Shown here one piece after another: positions 43,561 to 53,712 of a DNA stretch of 64,000 bases. Made by a program: the position numbers and the translations under genes. How positions within the stretch are numbered: the first letter of the stretch is position 1; every line of letters begins with the position of its first letter. The notes under the pieces were generated by a model. That model was not told the DNA's origin and ran no database searches. It was given only the letters and a program-made list of their open reading frames with translations. This stretch comes from Saprospiraceae bacterium (GTDB taxonomy: Bacteria; Bacteroidota; Bacteroidia; Chitinophagales; Saprospiraceae): assembly GCA_013001595.1 (NCBI GenBank), contig JABDMH010000105.1:1-64000 (forward strand), in the 5' to 3' direction.

Positions 43561-45131
43561 CTACTTGTTTTCGCCTTGTACATGAACAATTATCAAAGAG
43601 TGAGGAGGTAGCTTTACAGCACCATTTTCAAAGATTAACTCCGTCCTTTTCGGAGCCACCCTATTTGGATGTTCAATATCGTTGAATGCTTGGGGCGTCC
43701 CTCCAGTCAAGATGGTCGCTTCATATTTGCCATCTAACATTCTATTCCCCAAATTTATGGTACATACTACGTCTTCTCTTGGGTGCCGGTTAATTAGGGA
43801 GATGGCCCAGTTTTCTGCATTTTCATCGACCGTAGCTACAGCATCCACCACGGCCACCGAGCCTGTCTCATGGACGAGTTTATCTGTGGTAATTTGAATG
43901 GGTGCCACCTGGCTTTCCAATTCGTTGGTATACATAAACATCGCATGAAAATGGGTACGCTTAACGATCCCTTTTGGGTGGACATACAGTGGACCCCGTG
44001 TATTGACAAGCGGTGCGATATTGCCCATGGTCACCCTTTCGGAATTACGTAGACAGGCGTTTAAGAATGACGCAGCAAAAAGCGCATCGGCCATGGTGTA
44101 GTGACTGTTCAGGTCATTGCCTGCTATCCTTTCTTCAACCAGTCTAAGAACTTCAGGGTCTTCATAATCATTCATCTTGTTCCTTGGAAACCCCGGATGT
44201 TGCCAGGCACGTAGGTTCCATTCGTCAAAGGCAATTTTGAGCCGGCCCATGTTTTTATCATCGAGAGACTTGCTTACAATCTTTATATACTTCTCCGGGT
44301 TTTCTGACTGGGCAATTGCCGTCATATAATCATACCTGGGCAGGTCGTTTCCTCGTGGAAGCCAGTAGTTGTGAACCGAGATATAGTCTAGGTAATCACC
44401 TGCCGTCTCCATCAGATAGGACTGAACCCCGGGCATCTTTTTCCCCTGATTCCCTTGAGATCCAGAACAGGTTATTTGAATATCCGGATAAAGCTCTTTC
44501 ATGGCTTTGGCGGTATTGCGTACTCTGTTGACATAGGCAGTGTCATAGCGCTCATTACCAACACTCCAGAACTTTACATCAAAGGGCTTAGGGTTTCCAT
44601 TTGCCTTACGCATATCAGCAAATTTCCCATCGGTCGCATTGCAATAAGCCACCCAGTCAAGATTCTCCTGAACGTCAGCTAATCCATTGTGGCAGATGTA
44701 AGGCTCAGCACCAATCATTCGGCAAAATTCAACAAACTCGTCTGTCCCAAAGGTATTGGGTTCTATCACCCCCCATCGGAAATCGCCATAAGCCGCACGT
44801 TTTTCTCCAACTCCCTTTTGCCAGTGATAGGCATCCACAAGCATCCTCCTGGCCATCGAAGAACAGGCACTTTCAGCTCCGTTAATGCTTCAACAACATC
44901 TATGCGAAAGCCCTTTACATCAGCCAACGGAGACCCGGGTTCAAATACACCGCCGTAGATTTGTCTTCCGAAATGTTCAATAAAGCCACCGAATATCATT
45001 GGGTCATATGCCTCGGGCGAGCTTTCTGTACCGATGGCAATGGTTGTTTTTCGCATCGCTGATTGCTCTGCGGGAGGTCTACAAGACAGCATGCACAAGG
45101 AAAGGCTCACTATTAATGTTATTGTTCTCAT
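43561..45131 (-). pseudogene. GH51-type alpha-L-arabinofuranosidase, one-base frameshift
   Basis: Two overlapping minus-strand frames form one enzyme of ~523 residues. The first (45131 down to ~44840) has a lipobox signal (LCMLSC) and reads IFGGFIEHFGRQIYGG and VPVLRWPGGC. The second resumes with VDAYHWQKGVG and continues to the C terminus with YICHNG, VGNERYD, AFDEWNLRAW and a beta-sandwich tail. At 44839-44841 the reading TGCTT-GTGGAT needs one more pyrimidine to give the expected WPGGCFVDAYHW. Family GH51 enzymes release L-arabinose from arabinans and arabinoxylans; acid/base Glu (GNE) and nucleophile Glu (DEW) are present. Either a real recent mutation or a sequencing/assembly slip in a short T tract. 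Confidence 0.85.
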
Positions 45132-45421
45132 TGGCTTTATATATCGGGTTATACCTGCTCCCTTCTTTCACCTCCCTATGGTTCAACACTAAAAACAAAT
45201 AAGCTGGCAACCCATTAACACAAAACAACTAGGATGCGCTGTTGGAACTTGTACCTCGGTTCGGAGGCCCTTCTCTGTGATATCCTCCTATGATTGATGG
45301 TGTCCTGAAATCGCCAAATTAAGTACCTGTACTCAACTCCGTAACATCTTGCTTAAAAGGGGAGCCTCCATTGCGCAAAACCCGCTGTAGGTGGATCTTA
45401 TTGCACTGATGTCAGTGGTTT

Positions 45422-45808
45422 TTATTCAATATGTCTGTACATCCAACTGGTCAAGTTACCATTTCGACACCATTTCATGGCTTTTTCTATCTCTCCTTTA
45501 CATAGACCACTATTCCTGTTGCATGGACTTTTTTCTTTAGTTTGCGTATTCAACTGTTCTAGAAACGGCAATGCCTCTTGATCAGCTAACTGCCCGAGTG
45601 CCCAGATGGCTGAATTCTTTTCTTCATAGCTGTGATTCTCAGATTCAATGAGTTTTGTCAATGATCCAATGGCATCCAGTCTATATGCTGTCACAGCAAT
45701 CGTTGTTATATCCTCAACTTGATGGTGAATTTTGGTAAATGTGAATATGGCCACGATTGCAAAAATGAAAGTACCCGTGATTAGAACCACCAACCATGTT
45801 TTTCTCAT
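45422..45808 (-). CDS. Membrane-anchored HEAT-repeat-like protein
   Basis: 128 residues. An N-terminal transmembrane helix (WLVVLITGTFIFAIVAIF) follows MRKT. The rest is one HEAT/armadillo-type repeat pair: RLDAIGSLTKLIES, then KNSAIWALGQLADQEALPFLEQL, which is the classic A/B helix text. A cysteine pair (PCNRNSGLCKGEIEKAMKWC) is near the C terminus and may form a disulfide if outside. Likely a protein-interaction scaffold. I do not recognise a specific family. Confidence 0.7.
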   Translation of the reverse strand: MRKTWLVVLITGTFIFAIVAIFTFTKIHHQVEDITTIAVTAYRLDAIGSLTKLIESENHSYEEKNSAIWALGQLADQEALPFLEQLNTQTKEKSPCNRNSGLCKGEIEKAMKWCRNGNLTSWMYRHIE

Positions 45809-46192
45809 AACTGCACTTTTATATTGACCTACTCATTTTAACTACCCCTAGGGCAATCTTCCGCGATAACACCTTCTTCATACTTGCAGACCATTCTAAG
45901 CACCAGTGAAGCATCTGTGTGATGATCTCTTATGGAACAGATCCATTTCGGAAAGCGCTACCAGTGATTTAAAAACGGAAAGTGAGCCATCGCAATTGCT
46001 CTTACCGAGGATAGTGCATTGTCCCATAAACAAATACGCACTCACCAATGGTCTTTTCGCCAGCTCATCATTATCAAGCCGCCAATTATTTATCTGAACT
46101 GGAGGTAACCTTTTCTGACAAGACGCAATCAAGGACTAAACAATCCAAGAATTTATGCCCTGGAGGCAAGTTAACTTCTAAAACTCTAACCA
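45809..46192. other. Divergent intergenic region with a possible decayed lipoprotein frame
   Basis: 384 bases. It must hold promoters for the HEAT-like gene (minus) and the giant surface-protein gene (plus). A minus-strand frame at 45896-46132 begins abruptly with LIASCQKR, like a lipobox whose signal core is missing, and runs 78 codons (WRLDNDELAKRPLVSAYL). It lacks a start with a signal peptide, so I do not call a gene. Confidence 0.4.
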
Positions 46193-49100
46193 ATGATAAG
46201 AACCATACTCCCCCTCATTCTTTGTGCCGCATCGTTGGCAAGTTATACAAGCATATTTGCTCAGGGGTTCACGTACAACCTGTATTCCGGGAGTGACTAC
46301 TACATGTATGTGGATCATAAAACCGACAAATTTTGTGACTGTAGCAATAAGTACAGCTTTTCCGTCTATAAAAACAGCGTCAGAGCATCCAACCTCCTAG
46401 GAAGTAGCACCAAGAAATCAGGAAAGATCACGATGAAGGTCGGACCATCAGTCAATCAGAAGTACGCATTTGCCGTGACTGTTAATGGAAAAAATAATTT
46501 CATTTTTGATTGTGCAGCAAACTGTTCGGGTACCGGAAGTGCAAGTAAGAGCTCCAAGACATCTCGTATCAGGACACCCAGAGGTGCACAAGCTTCCCAG
46601 GACAAAGACTACATTGATCTGAGTTGGAGCTCGGCTACAGACATACCAGCCAAGGATCACTTCTATCGCATTGCTAGGGATGAGCCGGACAATTTTATCG
46701 GTACAGCTAGTGGCGTTGCGAAAAATGGAATCCAGACATTTACAGACGAATATGTAGGTCCAGATGAAACACATACATACTATATTTTTACAGCAACCAA
46801 TGGCTGGGGAGGTCATATTTCCAATGCCCGCTCAACCAGGGGAAGAACTAGGCCCCGTCAAATGCTTGCATCGGTTGGTTTGGCTCGAAAGGTATCTTTG
46901 AGTTGGGATGACATTTCGGAAATCACAGATGAGGCCGTCATCAAAAGAGATGGACAGCAAATTGCAGAAATAAACATCAACAGTGCAGCAGACACGGCAT
47001 TTTCTGACAGTGATCCAGCCCTGATTCCTGGTGAAAAGTACATGTACTCCGTTTCTTGGACCAAGGGTGACGTGATCTATGCATTGTCGGCTACCGGTGC
47101 GAGTCAGCCCAATGGTCGAATCAGTGGAACCATACAAACGCCGTTAACGCAACTGCCCATCTCCGGGGTAGAAGTATGCGTGATCCAGGAATCAGCATTG
47201 GCACAGAGTCCATCTGGAACCATGTATTGTGATACCAGTGATGAATTTGGTCATTATGAAATTAGACGCATTTATTATGGCCCGGAAGCCACCTATACGG
47301 TCATTCCAAAAAAGGAAAATCATGCCTTTGACCCTGCACGATATGAGGGGCAAAGATTAGAACTTGAATTCCCCAGCATCAATGTAAACTTTGATGATAC
47401 CACCGCATTCCTGGCCAGCGGTAAAGTCATTCAGACGCTGCATGGAGACACCTGTGGTCTGCCGGGTGTGGAACTTTGGATCAATGATCTGTTTCGGGGA
47501 ACCAGGACGGATAAAGATGGCTATTACTCCCTGGGTGTGGAAGAATCCGGCACGTACAAAATCGAACCCAGATTGGCAGGACATGCCATTACGCCAGCTT
47601 CCCAATCCATATTGATTGATAAAGATGTAAAGGATATCAATTTTATGGACACCAATACCAACATCATCGAAGGACTCGTCAAAGCAGGTTGTGATCTTTT
47701 CATAGGACAAGCTCAGGTCAGGATATATTCCGGCAATGAGCGCATTTGCTTTGATACGACCGTGACCACGGATACTTCCGGATACTACAAGCTGGAGCTT
47801 CCTGCTCGATCCTACCAAGTCGAGGTGACGCAATTTACGCCATCGGATGACCTAACGATAGATCCCGACCAGGTGCTTTCCTATTTCAATACGGAAGAAG
47901 CCGACCTCACCTTCGAGCCACAGGAAATCAATTTCATTTTTAGGAGACCGCCGGCCATACAAGTTACCGGCCTACCGGCCATCAAATGCACTGCACTGGG
48001 AGCCCCCATCGTTGAGCAATATGAATATTATGCGGTGGACATCGCTGTGTCCGAGACGTTTGGTGATCGAAGTTGTTTTGTCGAGTCCGGTTATGTGGTC
48101 ATCTTCGATGAGGTCGGCGACAAAGATGGTCGTCCGGATACGATCGAACTGGAGGGTGGTAAAGCCAGCTACAGTCTTAGGGCAGGCGCACCAAACTTAA
48201 TTGCCCCACATCATAAGTTACTGCAAGTGGTCGCGTACGTCGATGATGAGGTATCGGATTGGTCCATGCCAATATTGGTCACTGGGTTGAGAGCTCGCGA
48301 GCAAACATTTGCAACCGTCATGCCAGAGATTCCTTTTATGATCCTCCACGACCCTCCTGGCGATGCGAGTTACAGTTTTCGAGAAGAAGGATTTGAGTCA
48401 GAACTGGCCATGCGTATGTTTGCCAAAACCGAAGCCAGCGTAGAAGCCAGGACCGAAGTCAAACTTGGATCAAGGTTTTCGATCAGCGATCCAACCGGTA
48501 TTATCTCTACAGAAACGGAAGCATGGGGATTGCTGGGAGGATCGCTAGAAATTGGAGCCCGCTTGGCCACGCAAGGGGAGCTAATTCTCAACACACAGAC
48601 GGTAGAGCGATTTTCGACTTCAAATAATCCGCAAATAACCGGTACAGAAGGAGATCTATACATCGGCGCTGCGATGAATATGGTCTATGCCTTGGCAGAT
48701 GTCCTATCGGTTGATCCCAACACGTGTGAGGCAGACCTGAGTCAAAGTATGGTTATGGGAAACGATGGTTTTGCCACCACATTTATGTATACGGAAGACC
48801 ACATCAATAATTCACTCATACCACAATTACAGCAGATTAGAGATCTGTACATCGAACAGCAGTCAGACTCAGCAGAAATCTATCGAAACCAAATTTCCGT
48901 TTGGCAGCAAGTCGTAGATAACAACCGTCGAAATAAGCAAAAAGCCAAAGCGATCGAAAATCGGTCTTTTAGTGCTGGTGCTGCCTACACATCTTCCACC
49001 ACCATACAATCTCAAGCCATCTCCTCGATCGAAGCCAGTGCATTCATTGATGCCGGTGTACTCATAGGAGCCGGATTCGAAGTAGCAGGATCTGGCGTAA

Positions 49101-50947
49101 GTGGGTTTTTAGAAACCCGCATCAGTGTCGAACTCGGTGCCTCCCTTACTGGCACCAGTCTTCAGGCCGTCACTACTGGATTCGAACTCAATGATGATGA
49201 TCAGGGCGACTTTTTTAGCTTAAATATTAAAGAAGATCCCGTGTATGGAACACCTGTTTTTGATGTCGTCAGTGGCAGGAGCAGCTGTCCCCGCGAAGAC
49301 TTCACACAACCTCGGGAGTCCTTGCAATTACTATCGGACAGCTATGCCCAATTTGATATTCCCACAGACGGCCAGGCAGTATTTAAACTTGATCTGGGCA
49401 ACATCAGCCAATCGGATGAACCACGTACCTATTTGCTGAAATTTCTCCAGGAAAGCAATCCCGATGGAGCCATTGTCACCATAGGTGGTAGTCAGGCACA
49501 AGCTCCCATACCCTATACCATACCAGCCGGAGGAAAACGCAATGCCACGATCACGGTGCAAAGAGGTGCACGCGCCTTCAATTACAACAATCTCCAGTTT
49601 GTACTCACCTCAGGATGTGAAGATGATCAGATTGCCGACACCGTAAATCTTTCCGTGTCTTTCGAGAGTATTTTTCCAGATATCAACATCATCAAACCCA
49701 ATCTGACGTGGACGGCCACCCAGCACGAGTCGGACCTTGTGTTGGCAAGGTTTGCCGGATTTGACCTCAGTGCATTAAAAAAAGTACAGCTTCAATATGC
49801 GCCTACGGGCACCTTTGCCTGGGAAGTAGGCAAGGAATGGTTACCTGCTGCCTTGGAGGGGTTTGACGGAGACTATACTGATGAGTGGGCAATAAATGAC
49901 ATCCCGGATGGCACCTATGATATCAGATATCGGGCTGATTACGGTGAGGGCGATATGTATTCTGACATTCATACGGGCACCATCGACCGTCAGGGACCGC
50001 AAGTCCTGGGTCTACCAGAACCCTCAGATGGTGAGCTGGTACTGGGTGATGTCATATCCATTCAATTTAATGAAAACATCAGCTGCTTCTACCTAAGTCC
50101 AGCCAATGTAACCATGACCAATGTCGATACAGAGGAAACATATCCGGTGCAGCTGGGTTGTGCTGAAAACAGGCTCATCATTCAGCCCTTGTGGAACCTG
50201 AGTACCCATGTCGGTGAAGAAATCAACATCGAACTAAGGGGTGTCACCGATGGCTATGGAAATAAAGCACTCGATACGATGCTTACCTGGTCATTTATTG
50301 TGGGCGGAGCAGCCGGTCTGGAAGATAACGACGTGGATCAAGATGGTGTAGAGAACCTTTTTGACAATTGCTCGATTGCCTTCAATCCCGAGCAAAAGGA
50401 TATGGATGGCGATGGCATTGGCGATCTATGTGATGACGACATCGATGGTGACGGACTGATCAACATCGAAGACAATTGCGCTAGCCTGGCATCAGAAGAC
50501 CAATCGGATATCGATGGGGATGGCATCGGGGACCTCTGCGATGACGACATGGATGGCGATGGCATTGTGAATATCCTGGACAATTGTCCCACCACCAGCA
50601 ATCCCGATCAATCCGACGTCGACGCTGATAGCATAGGCGACGTCTGTGATGAGGTGGCTACCTTTACGCAAGAGCTGAGAAAATCGGTGCAAAAGATCCA
50701 GGTATTCCCAAATCCTGCCTATCTCCGCACCTTTGTCAAACACGATAACATGACCGATGGCAACTATCGCTTGCTCATTTCCGATCTCAGGGGCCAGCAC
50801 ATACAAACGCTGCAATACCCTTCAGGCAGTTGTATGCAGGATTGTCTGATCGAGCTCGATGTTTCGACCTTAATCAATGGTACCTATATTATTACGGTCA
50901 CCAACTCCAGCCAATTGTGGCATGGAAAGCTCAATGTCGTAAGGTGA
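46193..50947 (+). CDS. Giant T9SS-exported surface protein with FnIII-, CarboxypepD- and TSP3-type repeats
   Basis: 1584 residues. Signal peptide to ~24 (ending SIFAQ). A Cys-containing N-terminal module ([20 protein letters not shown]) is followed by fibronectin-III-like regions to ~300. Three carboxypeptidase-regulatory-like modules follow at ~310-580 ([62 protein letters not shown]). A long central beta/helix region shows alanine-rich stretches. Then an Ig-like Big_5 module ([27 protein letters not shown]), three thrombospondin type 3 calcium repeats (~1377-1490; [15 protein letters not shown]) and a type A T9SS sorting domain (~1510-1584). Likely a cell-surface adhesin or a structural or matrix protein. 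A decayed copy of its 5' end lies downstream at 51606-51811. Confidence 0.88.
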
Positions 50948-51816
50948 GATTATCCACTTTCGAATTTCAAATAACCGGTGTCTAGCGTAGACGATTGAAA
51001 ACGTTATGATGAGCCACTTGCGCAAATAGATGCAGACCGACTAGGTTGTTTATCTAGTTAACTCAAACTCGAACTCTTTCCCAGAATGGATAGACCACAT
51101 TATAAAAGCGGATCATGGACGTTCTTAACCACTTTGCGAGATCATTAGTGCTCTTCATCTCCAAATTTCCCATGCAAACTGTCCAATATTGCGGGAGGCA
51201 TTTCAAATTTGATCCGTGAAGCTTTCTTTTGTCTAAGTGCTCCCAAACTATGTGACCATCAAATCGCCGCTCAACTTCCGGACTTTACTCCTTCAAATCA
51301 ACAATATAGCCATTAACCGTCAAGCAACATAAAACTAACAGATCAGATATCGAAGCAAGACAGGCCATCATGAGAATATGGGTTCACCAAAAAGGACGCA
51401 GGGCTTAAAAGTTCAGCGGTTGCCAGAAAAAAAATAGACCCAGGGTAACCCTTACTGGATTTATGCAATTAAAGGGTGATAAGAGATTGACTTTTGCAAC
51501 GCCTCTCTTTGAAACTCTGGATGCCTGAGTACCATATAAAATCTTTAACATGTCTAAAACTGTGCACCTTTTCTCCTGCTAGCCACTAAATCCTTTGACT
51601 AGACAACCAACATCTACACCCAAGGATATACCTAGATCTTTACCCAGAAGTGACTAATACATGTATGTGGAGCACAAAACTGATAAAATTTGTGATTGCA
51701 GCATTAAGTATAGCTTTTCCGCCTTAAGAATAGCGTCAAAGCATCCAATCTCTTAGGAAGTAGCACTGAGAAATCAGGCAAGATCAAGATGAAAGTCGGA
51801 CAATACATAGATTAGC
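50948..51816. other. Long intergenic region rich in gene remnants
   Basis: 869 bases between the giant gene and the Na/Pi cotransporter gene. It contains a broken copy of the giant gene's beginning (51606-51811, plus) and a minus-strand coding-like tail at 51145-51258 (LGALRQKKASRIKFEM, then PPAILDSLHGKFGDEEH and TAA) with an upstream stop. Nothing intact is encoded. Confidence 0.6.
51606..51811 (+). pseudogene. Decayed duplicate of the 5' end of the giant surface-protein gene
   Basis: This stretch aligns base by base with about 46250-46456, the first codons after the signal peptide of the gene at 46193. Reading from 51658 gives YMYVEHKTDKICDCSIKYSF, matching [20 protein letters not shown]. 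The copy is ~2 bases shorter before that point, has in-frame stops, and loses a further base near 51722-51726 (GCCTTAAG against GTCTATAAA), shifting frame. By eye ~80% of bases agree. Only the N-terminal module is present; the rest of the gene is absent. It ends 5 bases before the opposing cotransporter stop. Confidence 0.88.
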
Positions 51817-53712
51817 CTACTTTTTACTTTTCTCCTTTTTCTTAATCTTTCGCGGCCCCCGCTTGGCCTTTTCTTTCTCCGTCAACACCATATTACTGTC
51901 AATGTTGATGTACAACAATTCCGCAGTCTCCACGAGGTTACTCGTTATTTTGGCAACGATCTCACTATCATTAGCCAAAGAAGTGGCCATCACACTAGAG
52001 ATCTTATTCCCTCGTATCAGTTCATCCAATGACCCATCAACCAAAACATCACTTTTTCTAGCCTTCTCTTTTAACTCCTCCAACCGACTAATATGACTTT
52101 CAGGATCTTCGTCATTTCTAGTCAGATGAATTTCACGCAAAATAAGTGAAACTTTTTTTCTAAGTCGATCATACTCCTTTTGTATATATGGATTCTCCGG
52201 CATAATATACTTCCTCACGTTAACTTGAAGCCCTCCCAAGTATTTGATTACTTCGACCATATTACGATTGGCTAACTTTATATGTGTAATCGCATCATTG
52301 GCTTTTGGTGTGAGGGAAAAATTACTCTGAATCAATGTGGCGTATTTAATTATTTTGCTATAAATTATTTTTACACGATTGTAATACAGTTCATCCGTAT
52401 CAACTTCTATTTCTTCGCGAGATCTTCTTACTACTTTTTTTAACTTCTCACTACCTTCAATGTCTTGGCGATGGATATTTAGGCTGTGTGCAACAGCTTC
52501 ATAAACGACCTTATCAAAGAGGCGTCTGGTTTCGTTGTATAGGGCTAAAAAAGCCGCTTGGGGATAAGCTAGCGTACTTTCATTAAGATATCTAGGATAA
52601 TCAATACCATCTACTATGGGTTTCTCAATAAAGATCCTGTTTAGCACCCTCACTAAAGGATCAATGAATGGCACCATTATAAACACGCCCAACAAATTAA
52701 ATAATGTATGAAATACCGATAATTTAAGTACGTAATTGTCCTCAGCAATATCAGTTTTTTCAGCTATCAAGTTGACTAAATAATCTATTTGAGTAATAAA
52801 TATCAATGCCACTAGACCAGTCACAAGATTGAATACAAAATGCGCACCAGCTAGTCGCTTTCCAGCAATATTGGCACCGAGCGCACTCAGTATTGCAGTG
52901 ATGGTTGTACCAACATTTGCCCCAATGGCCAAAGCCAGTGAATTAAAATAAGATATCTGGCCAGCCGCCAAGGCTGTCAAAATCAATGCCATTGTAGCAC
53001 TACTAGACTGCAATATAACCGTCAACGCTATACCCAAGAGTGTGAACACCACCAATCCCCAGAAACCGGGCCAACCGTAACTAGCCAAGTCTAGCCCTTG
53101 TTTATAGCTATCAAATCCCTCCTTCATGAAATGAATACCCAAGAAGAAGAATCCCAGACCGGCCAACACATTGCCAATCCCCTTTAAGCTCCTAGACTTT
53201 TGAAAAGTAAAGACTATTCCAAATGCCAAAATCGGCATTGCCAATGAAGATACTTTGATCTTCAGACCAAAAACAGAAACCAGCCATGCCGTCGCTGTCG
53301 TCCCAAGATTGGCACCAAATATTATCCCTATACCAGCATGAAGACCGATAAGTCCAGCACTAATGAAAGAAATGGTGATTACGGATATAAGCGAACTTGA
53401 CTGTAGAAGTGCCGTAACCACAAAACCTAAAGAAAGGCTTTTACGTAATTTATTTGTTGCTCTTTGTAAGAGCTTTTGAAGTGGTCCATTGACGAACGCA
53501 TTAAATCCATTTTCCAGCATAATCATGCCAAATAATAGAATGGCCACGCCAGCAGAAACTTCTTTTAGAATGGGACTAAGGAAGAATGCAAGGCCAAGGA
53601 GGATAAGAATGATGGGCAGCAAAAATCTCCTTATCACAGTAAGTCTCCCGTTTTTTAAATTATATACCAACTTCTCTCTATTCTTGGCCCAGGAATCAGT
53701 GCGGCACAACAA
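51817..53712 (-). CDS. Na+/phosphate cotransporter family protein with PhoU-like tail
   Basis: 631 residues from the ATG at 53710-53712; a GTG at 53635-53637 (25 codons later) would start closer to the first membrane helix. Two inverted PNaS repeats each carry the QSSS and GAN-GTT signatures: LLQSSSLISVITISFISAG with IIFGANLGTTATA, then LQSSSATMALILTALAAG with LAIGANVGTTITA. About 8-10 membrane helices end near residue 345. The cytosolic C-terminal half is helical and PhoU-like (LANRNMVEVIKYLGG; KVSLILREIHLTRN), ending in a lysine-rich tail. It imports phosphate with sodium or regulates phosphate flux. Same strand as the following genes, 317-base gap. Confidence 0.9.
   Translation of the reverse strand: MLCRTDSWAKNREKLVYNLKNGRLTVIRRFLLPIILILLGLAFFLSPILKEVSAGVAILLFGMIMLENGFNAFVNGPLQKLLQRATNKLRKSLSLGFVVTALLQSSSLISVITISFISAGLIGLHAGIGIIFGANLGTTATAWLVSVFGLKIKVSSLAMPILAFGIVFTFQKSRSLKGIGNVLAGLGFFFLGIHFMKEGFDSYKQGLDLASYGWPGFWGLVVFTLLGIALTVILQSSSATMALILTALAAGQISYFNSLALAIGANVGTTITAILSALGANIAGKRLAGAHFVFNLVTGLVALIFITQIDYLVNLIAEKTDIAEDNYVLKLSVFHTLFNLLGVFIMVPFIDPLVRVLNRIFIEKPIVDGIDYPRYLNESTLAYPQAAFLALYNETRRLFDKVVYEAVAHSLNIHRQDIEGSEKLKKVVRRSREEIEVDTDELYYNRVKIIYSKIIKYATLIQSNFSLTPKANDAITHIKLANRNMVEVIKYLGGLQVNVRKYIMPENPYIQKEYDRLRKKVSLILREIHLTRNDEDPESHISRLEELKEKARKSDVLVDGSLDELIRGNKISSVMATSLANDSEIVAKITSNLVETAELLYINIDSNMVLTEKEKAKRGPRKIKKKEKSKK

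Follow-up and report, generated by a model that had tools for sequence, protein, structure and literature searches.

In the window, the whole 64,000-nucleotide stretch of Saprospiraceae DNA that was analysed, a single very large gene is followed by the remains of what appears to have been a second. The intact gene (46193–50947, plus strand) encodes a secreted protein of 1584 residues, as assigned by domain search and alignment, with a signal peptide recognised by eye. Pfam places carboxypeptidase-regulatory-like domains and thrombospondin type 3 repeats in this protein, and its C-terminal sorting domain (Por_Secre_tail) scores 25.5 bits, just below the Pfam cut-off of 27. Type IX secreted multidomain surface proteins occur in Bacteroidota; the signal peptide, the repeats and the sorting-domain match make the protein resemble them, whereas its N-terminal four-cysteine module, for which no Pfam family was found, sets it apart. 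This module, which lies in the region 46193–46600 and carries a GSDY motif, retains its four cysteines in all six aligned sequences, and structure prediction for the N-terminal region is poor (mean pLDDT 35.4). A plasmid collection searched with the 1584-residue protein returned two records, with distant and partial matches. Upstream, on the minus strand, an alpha-L-arabinofuranosidase gene appears divided between two overlapping frames (43561–44856 and 44766–45131); by eye the split looks like a frameshift in or near the overlap, and Pfam matched only the 3' part.

The relic and its leader

Between the intact gene and a convergent Na+/Pi cotransporter gene (51817–53712, minus strand, its stop codon beginning at 51817) lies the relic (51443–51816, plus strand), which comprises a leader element, a degraded start codon and signal region, and the first half of the N-terminal module. 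When 45800–47000 is aligned locally with 50948–51816, 46292–46448 pairs with 51649–51804 through 134 identities, 22 mismatches and one 1-base gap (86% over 156 bases); the score is 197, and none of 500 mononucleotide shuffles exceeds 36. This result confirms the proposal of an earlier note that a decayed second copy of the beginning of the giant surface-protein gene lies beside it. Nor is the likeness confined to a short segment translating as YMYV-HKTDK, since 51725–51804 is 86% identical to the intact gene over 80 ungapped bases.

The extent and the damage of the relic differ from what the earlier note described. It had the match begin at 51606, but the strong match begins at 51649; from the degraded start codon to the end of the signal region (51550–51648) only 45 of 96 bases agree with the intact gene. 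As a limit of the whole relic, 51606 likewise does not hold, for the relic reaches further upstream, to the leader element at 51443–51473. Stops and small deletions had been described, and disabling changes are indeed present, but not several: the strongly conserved part has one in-frame stop (TAA at 51655–51657, where the intact gene has TAC) and one base missing relative to the intact gene, a frameshift between 51724 and 51725. This part corresponds to residues 34–85 of the intact protein only, and so two of the four conserved cysteines are kept (48 and 50, not 107 and 111). The cysteine-bearing module is thus preserved as its first half rather than whole, and in company with a promoter-like leader. 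Homology stops somewhere from 51804 up to the cotransporter stop codon at 51817, with 12 bases between the end of the strong match and that codon.

No other part of the second copy was recovered. The 1584-residue protein finds two places only in its own genome (6.2 Mb, 161 contigs), the intact gene and the relic. When the window is searched at protein level and low stringency, with the intact gene masked out, two relic pieces are recovered (E 2e-15) and no other part of the protein scores below E 3; the genome likewise yields no further piece at E 0.001. The intergenic stretches far upstream of the two copies (45809–46095 and 50948–51430) are unrelated, with 517 of 1000 shuffles reaching their alignment score. 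An Rfam scan of 45400–52200 found no family at gathering score. Scans for sigma-70 promoters and for terminators returned fewer sites than shuffles did (6 against 10.2 and 3 against 5.7, respectively), with no terminator listed between the relic leader and the cotransporter.

Upstream, the two copies share the leader element. At the intact gene it reads AGGTAACC-N14-GCAATCAAG (46103–46133, plus strand) and ends 59 bases before the ATG; at the relic it reads GGGTAACC-N14-GCAATTAAA (51443–51473, plus strand), with no difference between the two in any of the 12 core bases. The core, GGTAACC-N14-GCAAT, occurs exactly at 46104 and 51444 and nowhere else in the window, where its chance mean is 0.01, an optimistic figure in that the pattern was chosen after the sites were seen. 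From core to module the distance is 188 bases in the intact gene and 205 bases in the relic. The same element (GGTAACC, 14 bases, GCAAT) also precedes the orthologue in another species (genome G001), whose leader agrees with that of the relic at 35 of 50 bases, a match reached by 0 of 1000 shuffles when only the near leader is considered and by 22 of 1000 for the whole intergenic stretch. Permissive scoring of these upstream alignments was mostly no better than shuffles, and stricter scoring was used instead. Aligned over their whole length, the relic and intact leaders score no better than shuffles (279 of 1000 reach the score), and the case for their collinearity therefore depends on the core, on how far it stands from the module and on the match to G001.

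Divergence, relatives and rival origins

The search for relatives bears on whether the two copies were once a full pair. In the family, the module is found in 8 of 398 genomes, and among the best candidates per genome (up to 10) only the genome under study has a second match. The search for two full paralogues in related genomes thus returned seven other carriers among 397 genomes, with one match each. In a survey of 150 genomes, in which all candidates were scored for the 24 genomes listed, four genomes match, and again only this one does so in more than one place. A scan of named genomes gave six loci in six records, all assembled bins titled Saprospiraceae or Bacteroidia. Within the genus the module is present in three of six genomes, and the relic-bearing intergenic stretch, used as a query, retrieves only its own genome and the G001 orthologue. 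The surroundings of the orthologues vary: in G001 the next gene appears, by eye, to start about 46 bases past the stop codon, the contig ends about 200 bases later, and a cotransporter homologue (63% identical) lies on a different contig, while in genome G005 another gene follows after 174 bases. Among the relatives examined, none has two copies in one genome.

The relic and the intact gene have diverged unevenly. Their identity is 49% in the leader (49/100), 47% in the signal region (45/96) and 83% in the module (135/162). Between the intact gene and its G001 orthologue the corresponding values are 54% (47/87), 60% (59/98) and 83% (136/163). The profile of the relic thus resembles that of two genes that were functional for long, and is much like that of the intact gene against an orthologue from another species. 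Had the intact gene been duplicated in tandem only recently, and had the additional copy then undergone loss and neutral decay, the relic would lie where it does, on the same strand, immediately downstream and in this genome only. Uniform identity is expected of such a recent neutral duplicate, however, and the profile is not uniform (94 of 196 bases in leader and signal region against 135 of 162 in the module), which suggests that the downstream copy probably functioned for most of its existence and died later. Sites at which the relic agrees with the intact gene do exceed those at which it agrees with G001 in the leader (16 against 12) and in the module (17 against 6), as a recent duplication would have it; the best tree, on the other hand, pairs the relic with G001, if not significantly, and two full copies in relatives, which would have supported a recent event without being required by it, were not found in the seven other carriers. 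We consider a recent duplication improbable.

That best tree, built from four sequences, groups the relic with G001 weakly, and the approximately unbiased test gives P 0.12–0.15 for the two alternatives. It is the grouping that would be expected if the relic were what is left of the resident gene and today's intact gene had come later from a relative and been inserted upstream, and the signal region agrees with it (13 sites shared by the relic and G001, 10 by the relic and the intact gene). The preference of the tree is not significant, the leader and module sites point the opposite way, and the sites informative with G005 split 11, 13 and 12 over the three groupings. Moreover, the downstream neighbours differ in G001 and G005, so that a resident place is not indicated. 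Such a replacement appears to us slightly less probable still than a recent duplication. No branching order among relic, intact copy and G001 is significantly favoured, and so the age of the split is approximate.

Changes in the module can nevertheless be assigned to a lineage by using G001 to polarise them. Besides the stop and the gap, the relic carries 14 changes, 8 non-synonymous and 6 synonymous, and the intact gene carries 5, all synonymous; three sites, the stop among them, are unassigned to either copy. As a measure of relaxed constraint on the relic, the contrast between the relic (8 or 9 non-synonymous and 6 synonymous) and the intact gene (0 and 5) gives a Fisher P of 0.04, whereas the relic and the G001 side do not differ in this respect (P 0.48). 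The share of non-synonymous changes is below that expected with no constraint at P 0.007 to 0.16 over six settings, and at P below 0.1 in five of them; where a setting has 17 changes, the remaining two unassigned sites are taken as synonymous relic changes.

As an alternative, the earlier note had offered a cassette, left by recombination, that could donate variant N-terminal sequence. A same-strand partial copy confined to the 5' end, with only the module well conserved, might invite the reading of a silent donor whose variants enter the intact gene through recombination. This is very unlikely given that this genome has a single fragment and each of the seven other carriers a single match, that shared module sites are unclustered (28 runs against a shuffled mean of 26.2, with P 0.80 for a run count this low), that tracts of near-identity are absent (longest identical run 14 bases), and that the five changes in the intact gene over this stretch are all synonymous, the opposite of diversification. 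Silent cassettes serve antigenic variation, and the relic is like them in being a partial copy of a surface gene; unlike them it is single and diverged, has its own promoter-like element and lacks signs of exchange.

A probable truncated pseudogene of an old paralogue

Based on the homology, the disablements, the common leader core and the single match in each of the other carriers, we find it highly likely that the relic is a truncated pseudogene, derived from another copy of the giant secreted-protein gene that diverged long ago. We propose that this second copy once stood downstream of the present intact gene in the same direction and that, as the identity profile suggests, coding constraint acted on it through most of its existence. 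It would then have been broken by the stop and the frameshift, and the 3' part, about 1500 codons, would have been lost by a deletion reaching the 3' end of the cotransporter gene. Only the promoter-like leader, the start region and codons 34 to roughly 86 would have survived, a remainder that should yield no surface protein. The order of these events, the deletion and the role of the leader as a promoter are steps that we infer. The same holds for the full second gene, since two complete copies turned up in none of the genomes searched. The suggestion that the locus once held paralogues, one of which was lost but for its 5' end, thus fares well as to the loss, and a former pair is plausible and probably old; the two copies sought in relatives did not appear.

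Gene remnants in the form of truncated duplicate pseudogenes occur in bacterial genomes. Like them, the relic is an incomplete homologue that carries a stop and a frameshift and lies next to an intact copy; it differs from them in that an exact promoter-like core is kept and that the split from the intact copy looks about as old as a split between species. In itself the relic is a case of ordinary gene decay. By providing another instance of a conserved leader, it pointed the way to a sigma factor and a promoter that are candidate partners, and this by-product is of more interest than the relic.

The leader element as a candidate promoter

In its own genome, the motif GGTAACC-N14-GCAATCAAG with up to 3 mismatches has 54 matches against 36 for a reversed control, so the weak matches are mostly chance. 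The exact 12-base core is present in 5 of the 54, a list from which core sites with more than 3 tail mismatches would be missing: the intact gene, the relic, two sites on contig 5 (8641 and 10176; L033:642 and L033:2177) and one on contig 146 (2116–2146). By eye, the gene at one of the contig 5 sites is outer-membrane-type and that on contig 146 secreted LamG-like; the other contig 5 site stands 46 bases before a sigma-factor gene. The product of this gene has a Pfam match to Sigma70 region 2, and from this match and the usual promoter layout we take the factor to be of ECF type. On the same contig, the second gene after the motif (L033:2926–4539) encodes a 537-residue protein that matches Pfam Thiol_cytolysin.

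Across the six genomes of the genus, the longer motif with up to 2 mismatches has 21 matches against 2 in the reversed control, or 16 against 1 without the genome under study, the 16 including the G001 orthologue leader, which helped to define the motif. Inspected by eye, 14 of these 21 matches are closely followed by a gene for a secreted-type protein or a sigma factor, one is the relic, and six lack such a gene. One of the 14 (L068, in genome G004) precedes a sigma-factor gene whose product is 48% identical to the contig 5 factor. Among 100 family genomes, one per genus, the exact form GGGTAACC-N14-GCAATMAA is found only in the genome under study and in G093, a genome from another genus, which also has the closest relative of the contig 5 sigma factor (59%, 249 bits; the next scores 170 bits). 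The two motifs of G093 lie 44 bases before that sigma-factor gene and 26 bases before a 125-residue open frame. Another 33 of the 100 genomes contain weaker relatives of the factor (E up to 1e-25) and lack the exact motif. The motif thus lies ahead of the sigma factor's own gene on contig 5, in G004 and in G093. This placement, together with the relatives and the secreted-type genes, suggests that the element is probably the promoter of the contig 5 sigma factor.

The predicted promoter core is unchanged between the relic and the intact gene, while the surrounding leader is about half identical. Because the relic retains this core, a transcript could still run into the convergent cotransporter gene. 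The relic may even have been kept as a live promoter, in which case the same sigma factor would drive both the giant protein and a short RNA from about 51475; this RNA would run antisense into the Na+/Pi cotransporter gene, and expression of the surface protein would dampen phosphate transport. We regard this proposal as a long shot.

A related form of control has been described in Porphyromonas gingivalis, where the ECF sigma factor SigP controls type IX secretion genes and the motif C(T)AAA(G/C/T)A(T)A(C)T(A/G)A is suggested upstream of secretion-machine genes (PMC4800418). The two cases would be alike in that a sigma factor acts on secretion-related genes; here, by contrast, the element is GGGTAACC-N14-GCAAT, it stands before secreted-type proteins, and it is known from sequence alone. 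Among the papers listed in literature searches on the motif and on pseudogenes of such proteins, none bears on the gene or the motif, and GGGTAACC does not occur in those listed by a motif search; we claim nothing wider.

Not only does the relic record a probable former paralogue, its leader also hints, through the signal it has in common with the intact gene, at a possible regulator of such surface proteins. What emerges, within a single Saprospiraceae genus, is a candidate sigma factor whose candidate promoter, GGGTAACC-N14-GCAAT, would serve genes of secreted type. If this pairing is true, it would amount to a testable regulon for giant surface proteins in these little-studied bacteria.
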